Below, piece by piece: positions 14,529 through 17,072 of a stretch of 64,000 bases of DNA. The position numbers and the translations under genes are program-made. Below the pieces are notes generated by a model, which saw nothing but the letters and a program-made list of their open reading frames with translations, did not search any database and had not been told where the DNA came from. The DNA comes from Leptospirillum ferrooxidans C2-3 (GTDB lineage Bacteria; Nitrospirota; Leptospirillia; Leptospirillales; Leptospirillaceae), in the NCBI RefSeq assembly GCF_000284315.1, contig NC_017094.1, positions 1,891,486 to 1,955,485 on the forward strand. The letters are read 5' to 3'. Positions within the stretch are counted from its first letter, which is position 1. Each line of letters starts with the position of its first letter.

Positions 14529-14646
14529 GTTATAAAAACATTCAATCCATTGACATCATTCTCTATCTCAGCCATTATCCGGTCGAAAAGAGAATGATTT
14601 TCACATTGCCCGCGTCACATGACATAACTGGATCGGAGAAAGCCCA

Positions 14647-15393
14647 ATGGCCTTTGAAACTCTTTACCAATCGGCAAATCACAAGTTTCTGTGGCTTGGA
14701 AAGGATGAATCGGGTCTGGAAGAAGGAGTGCAATCCAATCAGTACCTGATTATTGATGGCGGGAAAGGTCTTTTAATCGATCCGGGCGGGTTTGGCGTTT
14801 TTGCCCGGGTTCTGGTGAATATCTCACAGATTCTGGATCCGGCAGACATCAAGGATATTTTTCTTTGCCATCAGGATCCCGATGTGGGAGGGGGTCTGGC
14901 ATCATGGTTTGAGATGACCCCGGCCGTCGTTCATGTCTCTGAGCTGTGGATTCGATTCCTGATTCATTTTGGAGTCAACGACATCACCCGCTTCAAGGGA
15001 ATTGCCGATAGAGGAGGATCACTCACCCTCTCCTCCGGACGAACGGTGGAATTCATCCCCGCTCACTTTCTTCACTCCCCCGGAAATTTTCACCTTTTTG
15101 ACCATGAATCAGGAATTCTCTTCACGGGAGATATTGGAGCCGCTGTCTATCCAAAAGGGAAAACGCCATTATTTGTGGAAAATTTCGCAGAGCATGTCAC
15201 CTATATGGAAGGCTTTCACGCCCGATATATCGGGACAAACAAGGCCATCGCCATCTGGCTTCAAAAAGTCCGGAAGCTCCCGATCAAGATGGTTGCGCCC
15301 CAACACGGTTCCATTTTCAAGGAAGAAATGGTCGGAAAATTTTTTGACTGGATCTCTGGAATCCGATGCGGTTTTGACGTAATGGACCTCTGA
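14647..15393 (+). CDS. ODP-like diiron metallo-beta-lactamase-fold protein
   Basis: 248 residues with a flavodiiron-type metallo-beta-lactamase fold but no flavodoxin domain. Candidate metal ligands appear in the family order: HQDPD (H75, D77, D79), H143 in FLHSPG, D162 in FTGDIG and H220 in APQHG. The second His of the flavodiiron HxExDH motif is Val here. This short form resembles ODP, a diiron protein that in Treponema binds iron and oxygen and signals to a partner chemoreceptor. The next gene, 10 bases downstream, is a soluble chemoreceptor, which strongly supports the same job. A simple hydrolase or oxygen reductase cannot be excluded. Confidence 0.8.
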
Positions 15394-15403
15394 GGGGGAT
15401 AAG

Positions 15404-16090
15404 ATGGCTCCACGAAATACTGACAAATCACTCAGCCTTACCCAGGAAAATGCCGATTCCGTAGTGAACTCCTTGGGTGAATCCATGACAAACATGGCTT
15501 TTTTGAGGAACTATATTACACAGTTCGAAGAGGTCAAGAGTCTCAACGACGCCAACATTTCGGCTCTTGCCTCCGTTCTTGAAGAGTATCAGGAAAAGGT
15601 CGATACGGAAGAGATCGTCTCTGAAGGGAAAGCGGTTCTGGAAAACCTTCACAAATTCCGGAACGTGCTGGGGAACATTTCAGGAATCGGTCGGGAGATC
15701 AAGGAAATCTCCACACAGGTGAATCTCTTGTCGATCAATGCTGCCATTGAGGCTGCCCATGCAAAGGAAGCCGGGCGGGGTTTTGCGGTCGTCGCTGAAG
15801 AAATCAAGAAGCTTTCCGACAGGACACGAAAATCTGTTGAGGAAATCGACCGGACCATAGGCTCCATTCGTCTCGAACTTCAGACCGTAACAGAAAACAT
15901 GACCGCCTTAAATGGGAGAATGGGAGACATCCAGGAGTTTGGAGAGATGATCGAGAAGCAGATTCATAAAATGAAGGAGTCGATGGGAGGATCCATCCTG
16001 AAGCGACTGATCGACATTGCAGTCAAACGACAGGAATCCATCTTCACATCATTTAAGACCGTGATCAAAAAACTCTCCGGGAGCGCCTGA
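15404..16090 (+). CDS. Soluble methyl-accepting chemotaxis-type signalling protein
   Basis: 228 residues with no membrane span. It is mostly a long coiled-coil hairpin; the conserved receptor tip [20 protein letters not shown] (about residues 109-128) contacts CheA and CheW. The N-terminal about 60 residues carry no recognisable sensor domain, so input must come from a partner, most likely the ODP-like protein encoded 10 bases upstream. Ribosome site GAGGGGG precedes the ATG. The gene ends at a short palindrome over its stop codon, facing the leftward DUF971 gene. Confidence 0.88.
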
Positions 16091-16469: not shown

Positions 16470-17072
16470 CTATCCAAAAAGTCGAACCGCTAAAGAAGCG
16501 ACATGCTGGCCCTGGAATCTTGCGATAGCCCTTTCCCTCGCACTTGGAAGCCTTGCCCCGTCACCACCGGCGATTGTTCCGGCACCATAGGGAGACCCTC
16601 CCGTCACTTCAGATGCGCCGGAAAGTTCCGGACAGCTGTACGGAACGCCGGCAATCAGCATTCCATGATGCAATAGTGTTGTGTGAAAGGATATGATTGT
16701 CGTTTCATGGCCTCCATGCTGGCTTGCCGTGCTGACAAAAACACTTCCGATTTTTCCGATCAGTCCCCCATTTGACCAGATCTCACCTGTCTGGTCCAGG
16801 AACGTCCTCATCTGGGATGACATATTTCCGAATCGGGTGGGAGTTCCAAAAATAATGGCGTCATATTCTGAAAGCTCTCCCGGGGATGCCACATCATAAG
16901 GAGAGTTTACAAGACCGCCGATTCTGACAAGCGTTTCCTCCGCCATTGTTTCGGGAACCCTTTTGACAAAGACCTCGCTTTCTCCCCTCTCCCCTGCGCC
17001 AAAAGCCACCTCTTCCGCCAATGTCTGGACATGGCCCCATGTGCTATAGAATAAAACCAGAATTTTTGCCAT
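16470..17072 (-). CDS. wrbA: NAD(P)H:quinone oxidoreductase WrbA
   Basis: 200 residues, flavodoxin-like. The FMN phosphate loop is [29 protein letters not shown] and the long [12 protein letters not shown] motif are characteristic of WrbA. The enzyme reduces quinones by two electrons, avoiding semiquinone radicals, and is commonly stress-induced. Its ATG overlaps the gpsA stop by one base, so it is translationally coupled to gpsA. Confidence 0.93.

Follow-up and report, generated by a model that had tools for sequence, protein, structure and literature searches.

A diiron-protein gene precedes a gene for a short soluble chemoreceptor

We analysed a 64,000-nucleotide stretch of the Leptospirillum ferrooxidans C2-3 chromosome (hereafter, the window), in which a gene for an ODP-family protein is followed, after exactly 10 bases, by a gene for a short soluble chemoreceptor, both on the forward strand (Table 1). 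The complete genome has 2,559,538 bases and the window a GC content of 51.6%; the strain is described as having a genome of 2.5 Mb with 50% GC (PMC7231039). Upstream of the ODP gene lies a candidate promoter, identified purely by consensus match, the −35 element of which (TTGACA) is retained in the sister genome L015. A Fur-like box at position 14590 (13 of 19 matches) was rejected, as it is not conserved in either L015 or the locus L016 and the window holds 10 sites that are equally good.

Table 1 Features of the ODP–receptor locus, in window positions
Feature	Position	Strand	Basis
Candidate sigma-70-type promoter, TTGACA - 17 - CATTAT, upstream of the ODP gene	14550..14578	+	Consensus scan, 10/12
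ODP-family diiron protein, 248 aa	14647..15393	+	PF19583, PDB matches, ligand alignment, dN/dS
Short soluble chemoreceptor, 228 aa	15404..16090	+	PF00015, no transmembrane span, co-occurrence with ODP, dN/dS
Receptor N-terminal head, residues 14-67 (predicted helices 14-47 and 50-65)	15443..15604	+	AlphaFold model, invariant residues, head profile
Receptor hairpin (predicted arms, residues 68-123 and 127-193, flanking the tip that binds CheA/CheW)	15605..15982	+	AlphaFold model, tip conservation
Receptor C-terminal helix, residues 198-225 (predicted), less conserved	15995..16078	+	AlphaFold model
WrbA-like flavodoxin/FMN_red protein, downstream of the receptor	16470-17072		Domain profile search

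The ODP carries a complete diiron ligand set

As judged from its sequence, the product of the first gene is a member of the ODP family. It matched PF19583 (ODP family beta lactamase) with 242.7 bits against a cut-off of 27.2 (E = 3.8e-72), covering the whole profile (positions 1-194 of 194), and it is 48% identical to each of two solved ODPs (PDB 6qnm, E = 1.3e-82; 6qrq, E = 9.9e-78). An earlier note on this DNA had called the protein ODP-like after reading HQDPD, H143, D162 and H220 in the diiron order, and the alignment with 6qnm and 6qrq bears this out: the H-x-D-x-D, H, D, H pattern of the family is present, with HQDPD at residues 75-79, and the ligand set H75, D77, D79, H143, D162 and H220 is complete. 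These six residues align with those of the solved proteins and are kept in nearly all of the 60-odd ODPs that we aligned. Comparison with sister genome L015 gave a dN/dS of 0.030, which indicates strong purifying selection and is a rough value because dS (1.0) is near saturation.

Flavodiiron proteins (FDPs) also have a metallo-beta-lactamase-fold diiron domain, to which the window ODP shows weak similarity only (4dik, E = 1.5e-12). FDPs carry a further His ligand at the position after the HxDxD-type motif. In the window protein this residue is Val80, so that HQDPD-V stands in place of HxExD-H. The 248-aa protein contains the ODP/Lactamase_B domain only, with the flavodoxin domain of FDPs absent, and FDP models scored just 24-28 bits against cut-offs of 635-711. 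We also observed a cysteine, Cys74 (window 14866-14868), directly before the ligand His75. Every receptor-coupled ODP of the window's family has this Cys, and hardly any other ODP in the alignment does, most of the others having Ser or Thr at this position. It is possible that Cys74 is a redox or tuning residue.

The receptor has a conserved tip, a family-specific head and predicted short arms

The second protein matched PF00015 (MCPsignal) with 80.1 bits (cut-off 34.6). No transmembrane span was found in it (maximum 19-residue Kyte–Doolittle mean, 0.78), nor did the domain profile search recognize a sensor domain. The earlier note's description of a chemoreceptor 10 bases downstream that lacks both therefore stands, but it had missed extra helical ends beyond the signalling domain: the first ~66 and last ~30 residues form segments of no known family. 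Within the receptor family, E15, L24, G25, E26, F33, N36, Y37, Q40, E42, E43, D49, L59 and D67 of the N-terminal head are invariant. We propose that the head is the region that docks the ODP. The C-terminal helix is 83% identical to that of L015, compared with 95% for the hairpin.

AlphaFold predicted the helices listed in Table 1, in a low-confidence model (mean pLDDT 65.9, pTM 0.45) built on an alignment of ten fairly similar sequences. A canonical MCP of a known length class would have a continuous hairpin of at least 12 heptads per arm; this model, at a pLDDT of only 66, has about 8 paired heptads per arm, topped by the extra helices, with breaks that fall at the invariant residues Asp49 and Asp67. 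Asp is a typical helix N-cap. A 291-aa receptor from other Nitrospirota, modelled as a control, gave one continuous hairpin with arms of ~128 residues, or ~18 heptads (pLDDT 81). Canonical MCP length classes run from 24H to 44H, and we know of no class with arms as short as ~8 heptads. A fold search with the receptor model returned generic coiled coils only, none of them at E below 0.001.

The signalling tip is nearly invariant within the family, and few parts of the receptor are as well conserved as the segment of the tip that binds CheA/CheW. Compared with the other receptors of the genome, the tip is changed at two positions that are normally constant, with His at the position of Tsr R388 and Lys at that of G390. 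These changes could weaken mixed trimers. The receptor gene is also under strong purifying selection (dN/dS 0.036 relative to L015, again rough, as the dS of 1.5 is near saturation). No methylation-site motif is conserved in the short-receptor family, and the motifs that canonical MCPs carry in both arms were not found. We considered whether lost methylation sites set this receptor apart and dropped the idea, as most other receptors of the genome also lack clear motifs and CheB and CheR domains are confined to a single open frame.

ODP and short receptor are inherited together

If the two genes work together, they might be expected to co-occur in related genomes, as the earlier note had itself proposed. 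We searched 296 Nitrospirota genomes, 21 of them in the window's family, and found the ODP in 17 of these 21. A profile built solely from the receptor's N-terminal ~71 residues matched 17 genomes among the 296, and these were the same 17 family genomes. The short receptor is absent from the four ODP-less family genomes (G010, G019, G071 and G095), which retain CheW-domain proteins and other receptors. By counting, the chance of this pattern (17/17 and 0/4) is 1/5985, or 1/171 when two fragmentary ODP-less genomes (G071 and G095, 64 and 72% complete) are left out, neither value being corrected for kinship. The expectation was thus borne out, and these comparisons indicate that ODP and short receptor are kept or lost together in the window's family.

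Adjacency of the two genes is also kept across genera, at the window, L015, L016 and the loci of genus g3. The intervening gap is 10 nt in the window, 10 nt in L015 and 25 nt in L016, and the common order in g3 is PAS-receptor, ODP, short receptor. The receptor gene of one sub-group has been relocated, to ~30 kb away where both genes share a contig, yet it is still present; there the ODP gene is followed by CheV instead. In genome G078, the ODP and short-receptor genes lie at the ends of two contigs (G078:C201 and G078:C207; L068 and L102) in compatible orientation, and are probably adjacent across an assembly break.

ODP genes elsewhere in the phylum adjoin several kinds of signalling gene

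ODP genes adjoin CheV in genus g3 and CheB or CheR, as read from their sequences, in other Nitrospirota families; the CheV domains were shown on the window genome's own homologue. At Nitrospira-type loci of family f10 (L033, L036-L039, L041-L045 and L048), the start of the ODP gene overlaps, usually by 11 bases, the gene for an upstream protein of ~263 aa. This protein belongs to no Pfam family and has two segments that resemble degenerate chemoreceptor tips; profile comparison with receptors (E 0.075) is no more than suggestive. Homologous arrangements occur at L040 (MCPsignal, 37 bits in two stretches) and at Pseudoalteromonas L017 (16.7 bits), and it is possible that the f10, L040 and L017 proteins form a series of decaying ODP-coupled receptors.

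At L051, L054, L057, L063 and L064 (genus g3 of the window's family) and at L069, L073 and L080 (family f17), the gene for a second ODP paralogue runs into the start of one for a protein of ~700 aa. GGDEF and EAL domains were shown for the partner at L057, and the coupling to c-di-GMP signalling is conserved. At L070, L071 and L072 the ODP proteins are 583-592 aa long, and that of L070 is a fusion of ODP and GGDEF domains. Across L051-L073, L080 and L086, then, the same sensor family in the same phylum has GGDEF-EAL neighbours, GGDEF fusions or histidine-kinase neighbours, and the output is c-di-GMP or a kinase where the window has a chemoreceptor. Because ODPs of Nitrospirota are also coupled to GGDEF-EAL proteins, an ODP alone does not imply chemotaxis.

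The window pair compared with known ODP–receptor systems

The precedent that the earlier note invoked is documented. In Treponema denticola, the ODP TDE2498 is genetically coupled to TDE2496, a receptor without transmembrane and sensing modules, and CheA becomes more ordered within the array when the ODP is removed (PMC7666581). An interaction of ODP with its cognate receptors is stated in PMC6978683. As summarized in PMC7319448, Muok et al. (2019) described ODP genes that adjoin chemoreceptor genes, in two gene orders, or other signalling genes, as well as ODPs fused to signalling domains. ODP–receptor pairing is therefore already published, and the window pair is a further member with an unusual receptor half. 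It shares with TDE2498/TDE2496 the ODP ligand set and a soluble receptor free of transmembrane and sensing modules, and differs in that its receptor has only 228 aa, with additional helices at the ends and a hairpin predicted to be short.

Classical ODP receptors of other Nitrospirota (families f11 and f16), which we take to be TDE2496-like although TDE2496 itself was not in the comparison, have 291 aa and EE motifs in both arms. Their operons (L019-L035) resemble the window in having an ODP gene with identical ligands followed by a soluble receptor gene; those of f11 have a CheB-like gene upstream of the ODP, unlike the window. A tree of the ODPs set the window's group apart from the f11 and f16 proteins, which cluster with the solved PDB ODPs. 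In a tree of receptor tips, the short receptors formed one clade and the 291-aa group another (each 100/99), with long branches meeting in the tree, and the head profile did not match the 291-aa receptor profile. The short receptor may have changed past the point of recognition, or it may have taken the place of an earlier partner. Because the window receptor differs from the classical ones, the details of the T. denticola precedent may not apply here. Our literature search, which covered few subscription journals, turned up no account of the short receptor, the PAS-receptor/ODP/CheV arrangement or an ODP in Leptospirillum.

The genome encodes a single CheA with 11 receptors

The earlier note had suggested looking for CheA and CheW genes elsewhere in the genome. 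Family searches found one of each, along with one CheV and 11 receptors, and a chemotaxis pathway therefore exists in this organism. The 621-residue CheA comprises Hpt, dimer, ATPase and CheW domains, and its gene stands in the run CheA-receptor-CheW-MotA/MotB-like. By hydropathy, six of the 11 receptors are soluble: four PAS-like, one with a zinc-binding CZB domain and the ODP-linked one. CheB and CheR domains were each found just once in the genome, both in a single open frame of 1722 aa (G000:C1:1002299-1003675; L107 and L108), and because they are confined to this frame, receptor adaptation may be unusual. Among the other receptors, L011 (G000:C1:1079233-1079604) is membrane-bound; its tip is degraded (NATIQASQAGPHGLAFRVV), and its sensor part carries a heme-like CxxCH motif (CVSCHD); CLLCH is also present in L001, the receptor of the CheA gene cluster.

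A proposed two-gene input to the CheA array

On the family assignments, ligands, receptor tip, che genes and gene co-inheritance read from the sequences, we propose, with a probability of roughly 0.7, that ODP and short receptor form a two-gene chemotaxis input module acting on the single CheA array. In this scheme the cytoplasmic ODP would bind two iron atoms and, with O2, pass into a ligated, peroxo-like state; its metal/oxygen state would alter its shape. The ODP would contact the short receptor, probably at the helical head peculiar to this receptor family, and the tip of the hairpin would insert into the single CheA-CheW/CheV array and alter CheA phosphorylation, which would steer the flagellar motor. 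We infer iron/O2 binding and the effect on CheA by analogy with T. denticola; the docking role of the head and any behaviour in Fe(II)/O2 gradients are our own conjecture. Several observations count against the scheme: the low-confidence model gives the receptor arms much shorter than usual, so that integration into the array is not assured; the changed tip residues could weaken mixed trimers; the Fur-like site upstream is not conserved; and ODPs of the phylum are also coupled to GGDEF-EAL proteins. A more tentative idea is that the short receptor represents a mini-chemoreceptor class confined to Leptospirillaceae, in which the head has replaced the usual adaptation region above ~8-heptad arms and docks a separate diiron sensor, giving a possibly non-adapting Fe/O2 input to the single CheA array.

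The ODP could instead be mainly an O2-removing enzyme, like FDPs, that relies on another protein as its flavodoxin, for instance the WrbA-like one, and has the receptor as a chance neighbour. Its fold and ligands are common to FDPs, and a flavodoxin/FMN_red gene lies 380 bases past the receptor gene. However, WrbA is near the ODP only in sister L015 and not at L016 or in g3, where the receptor is near, and we therefore rejected it as the redox partner. Val occupies the site at which FDPs have their additional His ligand, ODP and receptor co-occur in 17 of 17 genomes, and ODPs elsewhere pair with signalling genes (PMC7319448), all of which makes this reading very improbable. Another possibility is that the short receptor acts as a decoy or scaffold, capping or disordering the array or sequestering CheW, with the ODP setting its level or state. 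The predicted short arms, the changed trimer-contact residues, the long separate branch in the receptor tree and the greater order of T. denticola CheA in arrays without ODP (PMC7666581) would fit such a role. The strong conservation of the CheA/CheW-binding part of the tip argues against it, and we consider a decoy unlikely, if less so than an O2-removing enzyme.

What the module would report is a separate question. The pair may feed the array and yet signal internal iron load or oxidative stress (peroxide or Fe overload) rather than an outside gradient, which we regard as a real, if less favoured, prospect and a better one than a decoy. Their sequences place both proteins in the cytoplasm, an obligately aerobic way of life is probable for the organism (PMC7231039, on Leptospirillum), and Cys74 beside H75 in all receptor-coupled ODPs of the family could be redox-active. 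Sequence data do not separate internal from external signals, because O2 crosses membranes. Under the two-gene input module that we favour, loading with Fe(II) may be more informative than O2, as an obligate aerobe would often keep a high-affinity O2 site occupied, and we rate the cytoplasmic supply of Fe(II) as no less probable a signal than O2.

Chemotaxis transcripts of L. ferriphilum rise during bioleaching (PMC5772234), and the search of acidophilic iron oxidisers for Fe(II), O2 or mineral surfaces has yet to be explained at the level of receptors; in the literature searched we found no receptor with an assigned signal in these organisms. One receptor and its putative sensor partner can now be named, together with genomes that have and lack both for testing. 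If it still joins the CheA array, a receptor this short would show how little of a chemoreceptor is needed and could make ODP–receptor structures easier to solve.
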